Below are positions 6,359 to 9,307 of a stretch of DNA of 64,000 bases, one piece after another. How positions within the stretch are numbered: the first letter of the stretch is position 1; each line of letters opens with the position of its first letter. The DNA lies in the NCBI GenBank assembly GCA_030696085.1, contig JAUYNL010000081.1, positions 62,001 to 126,000 of the forward strand, read 5' to 3'. The notes beneath the pieces were generated by a model. It worked only from the letters and a program-made list of their open reading frames with translations. It was not told the DNA's origin and did no database searches. This stretch comes from Luteolibacter sp. Its GTDB lineage: Bacteria; Verrucomicrobiota; Verrucomicrobiia; Verrucomicrobiales; Akkermansiaceae. Both the position numbers and the translations under genes were made by a program.

Positions 6359-6772
6359 TCACCATTCGTCAGTGGAACCGGAGGTCGGATCGTAATCGGC
6401 GGCAGTGGCGTCGCCACTGTAGGTCCGAGTCAGATACAGGGTGCCGATGGCCGGAACAACGGCAAGATAGCCGTATGCGATGCCCGTGGTTGGCGGGGTA
6501 ACCGAGTTCAGGTATTTGCCAGTGCCGACGATTTCGCCATTAAGCAAGGCGTCGCCAATGCTGAGTGCGCGAACATTGGCATGAGCACGCACGGCTTGTT
6601 GCACGTTGCGGATGTTCAGGATGTTAGCGGCACGGTCCGAACCCTTCTTCCAGGCGCGTGCGCCGATGAAGAGGATGGAGATGAGGGAGAGCAGGACGAG
6701 GATGACGACCGTCAGTTCGAGGAGGGTCATACCGGACTTGCGCTTCATGTTGTGGGTGTTGGTCAGTTTCAT
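6359..6772 (-). CDS. Prepilin/pseudopilin with type III (class) signal peptide
   Basis: A 137-residue type IV pilin-like protein. The leader KRKSG is followed by MTLLELTVVILVLLSLISIL, with the Glu at mature position 5 that pilins need for assembly and the hydrophobic first helix, so a PilD-type peptidase should cut after the Gly. Two in-frame ATGs exist, 6772 and 6748; the second (MKRKSG) gives a more usual 6-residue leader. The soluble part is short, with many Thr/Gly/Tyr and no Cys pair. It matches the Amuc_1102 position of the Akkermansia locus. A terminator lies 42 bases downstream, so it can be transcribed as a separate, high-level unit. Confidence 0.9.
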   Translation of the reverse strand: MKLTNTHNMKRKSGMTLLELTVVILVLLSLISILFIGARAWKKGSDRAANILNIRNVQQAVRAHANVRALSIGDALLNGEIVGTGKYLNSVTPPTTGIAYGYLAVVPAIGTLYLTRTYSGDATAADYDPTSGSTDEW

Positions 6773-7001
6773 AGTGTGTGTATTTCTATTTTTATGTATT
6801 CGGGTGTGTTGTCTTTTTTGTCGGATTGAGACCGTTTGGCGAAAGGGAAGGATTCTGAGTTCTTCAGATTCGTTGGGCGGTCTCGGAGATTTTTTGTGTT
6901 TGTAGCGGCGGTCTATGACCGTCGATGCGATTGAGGTGTAAAAGTGAAGTCGTCAGGTATTTCGGATGAAGTGCGACGGTCACAGACCGCCGCTACAGTT
7001 T
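6773..7001. other. Intergenic region between PilT-like and pilin genes
   Basis: About 230 non-coding bases. It holds a REPIN-like repeat pair (6901-6997) and, nearer the pilin, a long imperfect inverted repeat: gagaccg near 6827 matches cggtctc near 6883, with a smaller imperfect palindrome (attctga/tcagatt) between them. The 70 bases just before the pilin ATG are AT-rich for this genome and probably contain its promoter, but I see no convincing -35/-10 pair. Confidence 0.55.
6901..6997. repeat. REPIN-like inverted pair (copy 1)
   Basis: A 24-base unit, tgtagcggcggtctatgacc + gtcg (6901-6924), faces its near-perfect reverse complement (6974-6997) across 49 bases. Each unit is itself palindromic (cggtc-tat-gaccg). 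The same unit recurs at 8326-8418 in the same inverted arrangement. This is the structure of REP doublets (REPINs), usually mobilised by a RAYT transposase encoded elsewhere. Confidence 0.8.
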
Positions 7002-8279
7002 TCAAATCTCATCATCATTTTTGTTCATGCGGGCGTTGATGAAGGTTTCAGGAGTGATGAGACCCATGCGGACGAGGCGGCGGAGGTTGTTGTCCCACTC
7101 GATATTACCGGCACGGCGGATGACGTCTTCAAGCGAGCGGGCTCCGCCGGAGTAGTTGGCGATGGCGGAGGAAACGGCGTCATCGTTGTTTTGGAGAAAT
7201 TCATAGGTGAGCACGCGGCGCTGGACGCCGTTGAGTAGGCCCTGGGAATGGATGAAGATGAGGATTTCAGAGAGGCGGCTGAGAACGGAGCCATGACTCT
7301 CCCGCGGATAGAGTTCGAGAATCCGGCCGATTGTTTTGACGGCACCGGTAGTGTGCAGGGTGGAAAGCACAAGGTGGCCGGTTTGCGCGGCTTCCATGCA
7401 GGTTTCCATCGCCTCCCGATCACGGATTTCTCCGAGCAGGATGATGTGCGGGGCTTTCCGCAGCACGTCCTTGAGTCCCTGGCGGTAGGAATGTACGTCG
7501 CGGCCGACTTCCTGCTGGGTGACGATGGAGGGCGAGGGAACGCGGTGGCCCGGATATTCGGGATCGTCCATGTCGTCGGGATATTGATATTCGATGGGAT
7601 CCTCGACGGTGACGATGTGCTTGGGATGATGGCGGCGCGCCCAGTCGATGAGCGAGGCGAGCGTGGTGGACTTGCCGGAACCGGTGGGACCGGTGACGAG
7701 GCAAAGGCCGGCGCGCTTTAACACACAGTGGCGCAAGGTGTCGGTGGTGTCCGGATCGATGCCGAGAGACTCGAGCTCGGGGATGAAGTCATTCAGGATG
7801 CGGCAGGTGATGCCGAGGCCGGAGGAACTGAGGTGGGCCTGAATCCGCAGGCGGCCGGAGCGCTCGCCAGTGTCACCCATCGGTATGCCGTCGCAGGAGA
7901 AGTCCGCCACGCGGGTCTCTGCGAAACTGGCGATGGCGAGGCGGATTTTTTCATCCACGCGCATTTCCATGGCCTGTTCCTGGCCGAAGCCATGACTGCC
8001 ACTTTCGCGGTTGGTGATGAGCTCCTTGAGGATCTCATCCATGTTGGAAGGCGAGAGAATCCCCAGGAATTCGAGTTTCTCCATGCCCTTGTTGGTATGG
8101 ATGTAAACCGGGCGGGAGGCGCGCATCTGGATGTCCGAGACGCGGAGTTCGCGGCAGACGCGGAAGATGATGCCTAGCAGATCGCGGCCGCTCATGCCCG
8201 GACCGAAACGCCCTGAACCAGCCGCCGGCGCGTGGCCCGGAAGCGGAGGGGGTTCGAGAACTGGTGATGCGGTGATCAT
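7002..8279 (-). CDS. PilT-like secretion/retraction ATPase
   Basis: A 425-residue AAA+ family secretion ATPase. Walker A is GPTGSGKS (about residues 197-204), the Asp box is HIVTVEDPIEY, Walker B is IILLGEIRD (about 279-287) and the His box is GHLVLSTLHT. Length and the short N-terminal domain fit PilT/PilU rather than GspE/PilB, and no zinc-binding Cys cluster is present. A 28-residue Pro/Gly-rich leader precedes the fold; a start further in is possible. The family retracts type IV pili by hydrolysing ATP at the inner-membrane platform. It is flanked on both sides by REPIN-like pairs, so it is probably its own transcription unit. An assembly role in a system lacking true retraction is the alternative. 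Confidence 0.9.
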   Translation of the reverse strand: MITASPVLEPPPLPGHAPAAGSGRFGPGMSGRDLLGIIFRVCRELRVSDIQMRASRPVYIHTNKGMEKLEFLGILSPSNMDEILKELITNRESGSHGFGQEQAMEMRVDEKIRLAIASFAETRVADFSCDGIPMGDTGERSGRLRIQAHLSSSGLGITCRILNDFIPELESLGIDPDTTDTLRHCVLKRAGLCLVTGPTGSGKSTTLASLIDWARRHHPKHIVTVEDPIEYQYPDDMDDPEYPGHRVPSPSIVTQQEVGRDVHSYRQGLKDVLRKAPHIILLGEIRDREAMETCMEAAQTGHLVLSTLHTTGAVKTIGRILELYPRESHGSVLSRLSEILIFIHSQGLLNGVQRRVLTYEFLQNNDDAVSSAIANYSGGARSLEDVIRRAGNIEWDNNLRRLVRMGLITPETFINARMNKNDDEI

Positions 8280-8288
8280 GGAAGAAGT

Positions 8289-8310
8289 GCCGAGTGAGCA
8301 GTGATCAGTG
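8289..8310. repeat. Short dispersed repeat (copy A)
   Basis: Contains gagtgagcagtgatcagtg. The same 22 bases recur at 21851-21872, inside mutS, and in both places are followed by a similar purine-rich tail (agagaag). Here it lies between the PilT-like start and a REPIN-like pair. Confidence 0.75.
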
Positions 8311-8325
8311 GTAAGAGAAGAAGTT

Positions 8326-8418
8326 TGTAGCGGCGGTCTGTGACCGTCGGCGCGAATGGAAAGTGAGCGGGCGTTGGGAAGATTTGTTAGTCAGCGACGG
8401 TCACAGACCGCCGCTACA
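8326..8418. repeat. REPIN-like inverted pair (copy 2)
   Basis: The unit tgtagcggcggtctgtgacc + gtcg (8326-8349) faces its reverse complement at 8395-8418, about 45 bases apart. It shares its arms with the pair at 6901-6997 while the sequence between the arms differs, as expected for REPINs. Confidence 0.8.
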
Positions 8419-8428
8419 GTTGAAGTGG

Positions 8429-9307
8429 TTAATTGGCGACCTGGGTGGGCAGCGTTTTGCCTTCGAAACGGAGGATGGTGCCCTCGGCAGCCTCGCGGAA
8501 CTTGAGGATGAAGTGGAGACGCTCGTCGCACTCGGTACTGCGCTGAGGCGAGAGAAGCTGCCAGTTTTTGGTAGTATCCCATTGCCGGGCGATGGCGACG
8601 TAGCGGCTGATGCAGTGATCGAGTAGCGTGAGGTATTGGCGCATCTGCTCCGTGGTGAACTTGGGCGCGGCGTTTTGCCGGTCGTTGAACATCAACTCCA
8701 GGATATTGGAGGTGGCGGCGGCGGCGGTGAGTGCCGGGCGCGGATCGTTATCCTGCTTGAGGCAGTATTGAATGGTTTCCTCGGCGAGTTTGGCGGCGGA
8801 TGGCGTGAGCTCCGGGCGGGTGCCGAGTTGCGGCTCGGTGAGAAAGAAGTGCAGCGAGTTGTAATTCGCGTAATGCGAGGGATCGAGCTGATAGGCGAAG
8901 CGGAGTTTGTCTTCCACCTGGCGGCGCAGGTAGCGCTTGTGCGCCGCGCTGGCGGATTTCCGATTGGTGCGGGTTTCCACTGCCTTTTCGAGCGAGGTGA
9001 GCAGGTTTTGGAAACGGTTTCCAGAGGTCGGCTCCGCTTTCACCGGTTGGCAGGAATCGCAATGTTCGCCCTCAGCGTGTTGGTGGGCCGGACCGCCGCC
9101 ACTCCATGCGCCGTGGAAATGGGTGTCGATGGGCCCTTGCATGGCCATGGCGAAAACTTCGCCGTAAGGACTGCCGTTGATGCCGAGAGGATTCATCGGC
9201 GCATTGAGATCGGGATTATGGACCAACGGGCGTCCGGCTAACGCCCATGCAAGCATACCCGTGCCGATGAGGCCGGTGCTGAATGCGGTGGAAGTGATGC
9301 GGGACAT
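8429..9307 (-). CDS. Uncharacterised exported or membrane-anchored protein with His/Cys-rich segment
   Basis: A 292-residue protein I do not recognise. A hydrophobic N-terminal segment (about residues 8-27, AFSTGLIGTGMLAWALAGRP) suggests a signal peptide or anchor. Residues about 61-86 are rich in metal-type ligands, with HFHGAW, HQHAEGEH and CDSCQ (a CxxC). The rest is predicted mostly helical. The segment could bind a metal or haem, but the single CxxC is not followed by His, so a cytochrome c site is not supported. It lies upstream of the PilT-like gene on the same strand and 43 bases downstream of the ABC permease gene; a link to either is uncertain. Confidence 0.65.
   Translation of the reverse strand: MSRITSTAFSTGLIGTGMLAWALAGRPLVHNPDLNAPMNPLGINGSPYGEVFAMAMQGPIDTHFHGAWSGGGPAHQHAEGEHCDSCQPVKAEPTSGNRFQNLLTSLEKAVETRTNRKSASAAHKRYLRRQVEDKLRFAYQLDPSHYANYNSLHFFLTEPQLGTRPELTPSAAKLAEETIQYCLKQDNDPRPALTAAAATSNILELMFNDRQNAAPKFTTEQMRQYLTLLDHCISRYVAIARQWDTTKNWQLLSPQRSTECDERLHFILKFREAAEGTILRFEGKTLPTQVAN

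Follow-up and report, generated by a model that had tools for sequence, protein, structure and literature searches.

GTAG-type REPINs on both sides of a pilT-like gene in Luteolibacter, probably orphaned from a RAYT lineage read in frame inside housekeeping genes

The two inverted repeat pairs that flank a PilT-like ATPase gene are REPINs built of GTAG-type REPs; such elements are known, and by themselves these two are ordinary. They lie in a window of 64,000 nucleotides (the whole stretch of DNA analysed), which belongs to contig C90; the draft genome (G000) has 3.77 Mb in 110 contigs and is 96% complete. In the explanation that we consider probable, the two REPINs are separate insertions that have been orphaned, their likeliest source being a RAYT lineage carried in frame in a housekeeping gene. 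The features of the locus are:

6359..6772, minus strand: prepilin-like gene downstream of the pilT-like gene (N_methyl motif at 19.9 bits, under the 21.2 cut-off; synteny kept in congeners)
6901..6997: REPIN 1, on the 3' side of the pilT-like gene, 49-nt spacer
6902-6924, plus strand: unit of REPIN 1
6974-6996, minus strand: unit of REPIN 1
7002..8279, minus strand: PilT-like ATPase gene between the REPINs (425 aa, Pfam T2SSE)
8326..8418: REPIN 2, on the 5' side of the pilT-like gene, 45-nt spacer
8327-8349, plus strand: unit of REPIN 2
8395-8417, minus strand: unit of REPIN 2
8429..9307, minus strand: conserved 292-aa gene (orf292) upstream, no family above cut-off

Each unit is 23 nt long and is laid out as a GTAG head followed by an 8-bp stem with a 3-nt loop (4+8+3+8), in the form GTAGCGGCGGTCTRTGACCGTCG. 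Allowing up to 3 mismatches, the window has four matches to it and 100 shuffles gave none, which bears out the sequence-only reading that inverted pairs of palindromic units at 6901-6997 and 8326-8418 flank one gene. Its description of the units was right in that each holds a palindrome, but the palindrome leaves out the GTAG head and contains one G.T pair in its stem, and the copies are near-identical, not identical (A replaces G in the loop of one unit). With GTAG placed before an imperfect palindrome and a total length within 20-40 nt, the units are REPs of the GTAG type, and both pairs, as two inverted REPs forming one hairpin, have the anatomy of REPINs. The heads point outward in both, the 24-nt arms are 96% and 100% complementary, and each pair folds into one long hairpin (z of -8.0 to -9.0 as DNA and -9.7 as RNA); two of the units, folded singly, gave -11.5 kcal/mol each. 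REPIN 1 starts 4 nt past the TGA stop of the pilT-like gene.

Multiple dispersed copies are a further mark of GTAG-type REPs, and a genome-wide search allowing up to 3 mismatches found 36, with 18 on either strand; a reversed-pattern control gave 0. A strict-pattern search matched 11 of 39 genomes, these being the window's own and 10 of the same genus. Among 79 distinct copies in the loci examined, stem pair 6 is GC in 66 and CG in 9, stem pair 8 is CG in 76 and GC in 3, and stem pair 3 is a G.T mismatch in 62. The dinucleotide before GTAG is CT in 29 copies and TT in 31, together 60 of 69; the E. coli TnpAREP described in PMC8266576 cuts at CT beside the REP, and requires GTAG and a bulge in the stem. 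Close pairs (n = 19) comprise 14 inverted with heads outward, 2 inverted with heads inward and 3 direct. Neither a lack of other copies nor a random orientation of the units, which the sequence-only reading had named as grounds against itself, was found, and the spacing between arms, whose conservation it had proposed to check, varies from 28 to 76 nt across the 14 outward pairs. The REPIN architecture that it had recognised stands as regards the dispersed GTAG units and the predominance of outward pairs, but most copies in the window's own genome are singlets: 7 outward pairs account for 14 of the 36 copies there, and by a tally of coordinates 22 are other copies. The populations of Bertels and Rainey 2011 (PMC3116915) are described as mostly doublets, with a singlet/doublet ratio below 2 in 17 of 20 classes; a predominance of doublets, which is a trait of populations and lies outside the definition of the element, is not seen in G000 (22 other copies vs 7 pairs). 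This kind of element, which the sequence-only reading described as known from Proteobacteria, extends beyond them: GTAG repeats are also described from the PVC superphylum, including the Verrucomicrobia, with O. terrae highly enriched (Di Nocera 2013, PMC3733652).

The family resembles the REPs and REPINs described for Pseudomonas, E. coli and other bacteria in its GTAG head, imperfect palindrome and inverted hairpin doublets, and in being dispersed at gene ends, at times in frame and with TAG as a stop (PMC3116915, PMC3733652). Unlike them, it has no RAYT beside its copies, is rich in singlets in its own genome and has a variable spacer.

The flanking of pilT is a matter of insertion history. 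Counting the window's own genome, 29 of 61 genomes of the genus have a near-full-length orthologue (at least 78% identity). Most congeners keep the gene order orf292-pilT-prepilin, including at repeat-free loci. At up to 5 mismatches the family was found at 4 of 30 orthologous pilT loci scanned (the window's, L135, L136 and L149), while L145 has a decayed copy, L128 keeps a half unit, also decayed, on the 5' side, and in G018 (C188) a listed copy starts 6 nt beyond the end of the pilT match. Both sites are empty in most congeneric orthologues, and such empty sites would fit excision or transposition of a REPIN as a unit. On a pilT tree of 29 sequences the 3' REP needs two changes, one in the window lineage and one in a clade of four; the 3' site has been struck at least twice, by independent insertions. 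The 5' remnant lies in L128 and the 3' copies belong to another clade, so REPIN 1 and REPIN 2 entered this syntenic cluster separately. This differing history of the two sides, together with the gene order kept in congeners that have no repeats, largely refutes the idea of a single composite element, made of both pairs and pilT, that moves the gene. In its favour, it is mildly surprising that two of only 7 outward pairs in a 3.77-Mb genome should fall within 1.5 kb of each other (a chance of about 0.017 by rough arithmetic); we regard a composite element as extremely improbable.

The hairpins could instead have been selected as terminators or mRNA-stabilising 3' structures of an orf292-pilT-prepilin operon. 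Their strong RNA folds agree with this, as do the repeated strikes at the 3' site, the position of REPs mostly downstream of genes reported in PMC3733652, and the stop codon that the REP supplies in four relatives (its TAG doubles as the pilT stop in L135, L136, L145 and L149; in-frame REPs and TAG stops are already described in that paper). Selection of this kind leaves unexplained why both sites are empty in most orthologues, why the unit occurs genome-wide and why family copies are also read in frame within a purL frame and a U32-peptidase frame, and we find it improbable as the main explanation. A secondary role of the hairpins as terminators or stabilisers may nevertheless exist, and the REPINs may in some way affect pilT expression.

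A block like CTTTCCGAGACTGCC...CGCCAGGCAGTC...GACAAAAC upstream of the prepilin gene (window 6773-6885) is conserved in many congeners. A structured RNA leader was considered for the region upstream of this gene and dropped, RNAalifold having given no consensus pair on 16 of 24 regions; an Rfam scan of the window gave no match.

The dependence on a RAYT that the sequence-only reading had called usual for this architecture was not borne out by the searches. The window's genome has 13 Y1_Tnp matches, and 10 family-bearing congeners were searched with Y1_Tnp and a RAYT alignment (six at a first threshold, all at a stricter one); by coordinates, no Y1 or RAYT gene adjoins a family copy in these 11 genomes, and the window REP was found at the ends of none of the RAYT loci scanned. 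Since no RAYT flanked by the same REP was found there, it is their architecture alone that makes the pairs REPINs here, and with no RAYT beside its copies in the genomes searched, the family looks like an orphan population among the genomes compared. An undetected RAYT is possible in a draft of this completeness. An ordinary free-standing RAYT, missing from the drafts or too divergent for the models, is a doubtful but real possibility: the assemblies are fragmented, several Y1 genes lie near contig ends and Y1_Tnp scores RAYTs low, but the absence recurs in 11 genomes under both Y1_Tnp and the RAYT alignment. The free RAYTs that could be parsed (6 of 9 loci) carry repeats other than the window REP at their ends.

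The nearest case is L032 (C56 of the window's genome), where a small IS200-like gene has two family copies about 600 nt upstream. This gene was set aside as a mobiliser, since its flanks carry other motifs and no copy lies within 1.5 kb of the paralogue L031 (C25). The two genes encode 147-155 aa, and a further palindromic motif resembling GTAGCCGGTGG lies in the neighbourhood of L032. A RAYT-like match with a family copy about 1.1 kb away (L170) was taken as chance. The free RAYT L036 (C47, 145-1859) lies among seven units of a GGAG-headed REP family (GGAGCGGCGGAACGTGTCCGCCG and variants), of which the window has no copy. Five other loci (L035, L037, L038, L041 and L042) encode a family of Y1 proteins of 320-400 aa starting like MRRARW or MRKARW, several of them near contig ends; the GTAG REP of the window is absent from their examined flanks.

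The closest flanking REP, GTAGCGGCGATCACCGGTCGCC, belongs to the metH-borne RAYT of G011, G013 and, in diverged form, G006. This RAYT's own REP, GTAGCGGCGATCACCGGTCGCCG, matches the window unit in the head and lower stem, its first nine bases, and in the 4+8+3+8 layout, and differs from it by 7 mismatches in the upper stem and loop. Three genomes rich in the window family tell against such a source: the metH site is empty in G014 and G018, and G022 gave no metH match. A lost or unseen member of the metH-type RAYT lineage may have made the window family, where cognacy is judged by similarity, as no RAYT is flanked by exactly the window REP.

In this genus RAYTs often lie in frame inside other genes. 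Two are present in the window's own genome, within ispG (L121, C94; 1155-aa frame) and within carB (L122, C71; 1339 aa), both with REPs at either end and with no stop. The hosts read in the genus are leuS, metH, ispG, carB, alaS and one DUF5107/TPR protein; the fused frames examined represent 22 Y1 places, namely 17 frames and five more (four alaS, one DUF5107/TPR). A RAYT match was obtained in 54 of 61 genus genomes, and 82 of the 150 matches listed sit in a stop-free frame of at least 500 aa. A phylum-wide sample gave matches in 88 of 288 genomes, with 48 of the 150 listed in such a frame; a long open frame alone is no proof of a host, and the host gene is known for the loci that were read. 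In a scan of named genomes, 31 of the best 80 of 448 loci have a frame of at least 590 aa. The domain scans of these left out L252 (1457 aa), and in at least 16 of the 31 Pfam host domains flank the RAYT on both sides or one domain spans it (HsdR, LeuS, MmeI, an Arg/Orn-type decarboxylase, CarB, XseA, an ADH/GFO pair, PriA, an Eco57I-type methylase, a polyA/CCA polymerase and MetH). Of the others, some have a host domain to one side of the RAYT and some lack one altogether. The record titles of matches name Verrucomicrobia, Methylomirabilis, Bacteroidales, Gallionellaceae and Kiritimatiellales, titles which for MAGs may be wrong.

The in-frame units have the features of RAYT/TnpAREP proteins (NF047646; PDB ID: 4er8), namely an HUH motif, a catalytic tyrosine and inverted flanking REPs. 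All 17 aligned RAYT domains share the HxH motif, the tyrosine that we take to be catalytic (placed via the alignment to 4er8, which an in-frame RAYT matches with E 1.3e-6) and a further 20 invariant positions. NF047646 was the best family for all five domains tested, a set that includes the free RAYT L036, with 83.3 bits in one and 65.5-73.2 in the others (cut-off 80). Each of 17 frames has an inverted repeat at the two ends of its unit (0-5 mismatches in 22). Of 12 pairs, one is saturated for the RAYT part and the other 11 have a dN/dS ratio of 0.04-0.29 there; the host part has 0.03-0.18. The in-frame RAYTs keep their catalytic residues, and RAYT and host parts alike are under purifying selection. 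Pfam scans of the in-frame loci listed no self-splicing (Hint) domain.

The RAYT tree clusters by host gene, with 10 label changes vs 30 in shuffles, a statistic in which, judging by flanking residues, some host labels are wrong (L278, leuS; L114, L167 and L267, ispG; L284, metH) and the second units of L271 and L277, at another metH site, are labelled "other". One loop of metH carries a unit in 13 of the 28 loci listed (30 in total) and none in 15; where empty it is 5 to 7 residues long (13 loci measured). The MetH proteins of G011, G013, G001 and G024 are 96.2-97.5% identical, whereas their RAYT units are 90.1% identical in the GTAG pair, 87.2% in the GTGG pair and 53.7-58.5% between types, and in G054, from the same small clade of the metH tree, the site is empty. 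Comparison of these genes points to horizontal replacement of the in-frame RAYT at the metH site.

These metH identities come from 10 pairs of 5 genomes, with 18 of 30 loci parsed (5 with insert, 13 without). In a second comparison, of 10 pairs that include metH, leuS and ispG hosts, differences at four-fold sites are far fewer in the RAYT than in the host for G016/G015 (0/63 vs 175/367 in metH), G074/G008 (4/73 vs 130/392), leuS of G018/G042 (2/71 vs 30/208) and two ispG pairs (2/82 vs 23/161; 5/82 vs 63/288). The other five pairs have no clear excess of RAYT similarity (29/69 vs 132/413, 25/68 vs 122/425, 19/70 vs 86/271, 21/79 vs 87/275 and 15/67 vs 148/388 for RAYT vs host). In G016/G015 the unit and both REPs are identical, and the identity extends a few tens of bases into metH on each side and then falls. 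The pattern looks like that left by homing, or at least by recombination centred on the unit.

The five pairs without a clear excess, the ability of ordinary homologous recombination to yield a transferred tract, and the draft state of nearly all genus genomes could be taken to mean that the in-frame RAYTs are artefacts of assembly or annotation, or reflect only vertical descent and ordinary recombination. We think this quite unlikely. Against it stand the recurrence of the same unit and site in many genomes and phyla, with single-contig genomes among them (G004), the open frames under purifying selection in both parts, and the sharp drop in similarity just outside the unit in G015/G016.

A REP population can also be seen to persist where its RAYT is not. 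Copies of the metH-unit REP, a sister family of the window's, number 42 in G011 (two of them the unit's own ends) and 41 in G013, whose metH carries the GTAGCGGCGATC RAYT. G001, which now has a GTGG-type RAYT in metH, holds 51 copies of this same REP, and G054, where metH is empty, holds 14; by the coordinates listed, no RAYT lies beside them in either genome. Since G001 and G054 keep their copies after a swap or in its absence, REP populations can outlive the resident RAYT, and the window REPINs may likewise be read as a stranded population.

The explanation of orphaned, separately inserted REPINs would then run as follows. The REPINs would be non-autonomous and copied as single-stranded hairpins by a RAYT/TnpAREP, a step suggested by the published biochemistry of TnpAREP, and the copied hairpins would be dropped at gene ends, pilT having been flanked by separate events. 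The likeliest source would be a RAYT lineage resident in this genus as an in-frame unit, the nearest known being metH-borne. Such units would be gained, swapped and lost at fixed codon positions through homing-like transfer, and swap or loss of the resident RAYT would strand its REPIN population. On the broader proposition we are evenly divided: that in Verrucomicrobiota, and by single loci in other phyla, a branch of RAYTs lives in frame with REP ends in essential enzymes, keeps an active nuclease, homes between species to the same codon, swaps RAYT and REP types and strands REPIN populations.

Inteins and other homing elements sit in frame at one conserved site of an essential gene, with a patchy distribution, empty sites in near relatives and co-conversion at the edges. 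The in-frame RAYTs are like them in having one conserved site, patchy presence, empty sites and shared edges, and unlike them in bearing an HUH/Y single-strand transposase and REP ends; their putative homing is read from sequence only. The palindromic elements of Rickettsia (RPE) are not known to contain a transposase in their inserts, and the in-frame RAYT units do. The likeness to RPE lies in the palindromes being read in frame, as PMC3733652 describes for RPE in proteins. RAYTs are described in PMC8049555 as single-copy, vertically inherited genes; those found here are, unlike these, often in frame in leuS, alaS, metH, ispG, carB and other genes, and seem to pass from species to species while keeping to one site, which conflicts with a picture of purely vertical RAYTs. 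Long Y1 proteins were discarded in the study described in PMC6006769. Neither whole RAYTs lying in frame in housekeeping genes nor their transfer was found described in the literature consulted (open-access papers mainly). It seems that a single-strand transposase can be read within methionine synthase, IspG, CarB and the tRNA synthetases for leucine and alanine, that the cell apparently survives this, and that the transposase moves between species, which suggests an intein-like life cycle without splicing; RAYT swap or loss offers an explanation for orphan REPIN populations.

Some single loci are worth recording. L271 (G069, C35) and L277 (G071, C107) have metH frames of 1425 and 1452 aa with two different RAYT units at two sites. 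At the metH site of L311 (G007, C156), which looks empty, CCCTGTAGC is retained, possibly a scar of a lost GTAG-type unit. In the ispG of L118 (G006, C294), the usual site keeps only the first residues of the RAYT (SYLPHWKLDGG before the host YDPFSYERR) and looks like an in-frame deletion scar, and a RAYT is present at another place in the same gene.
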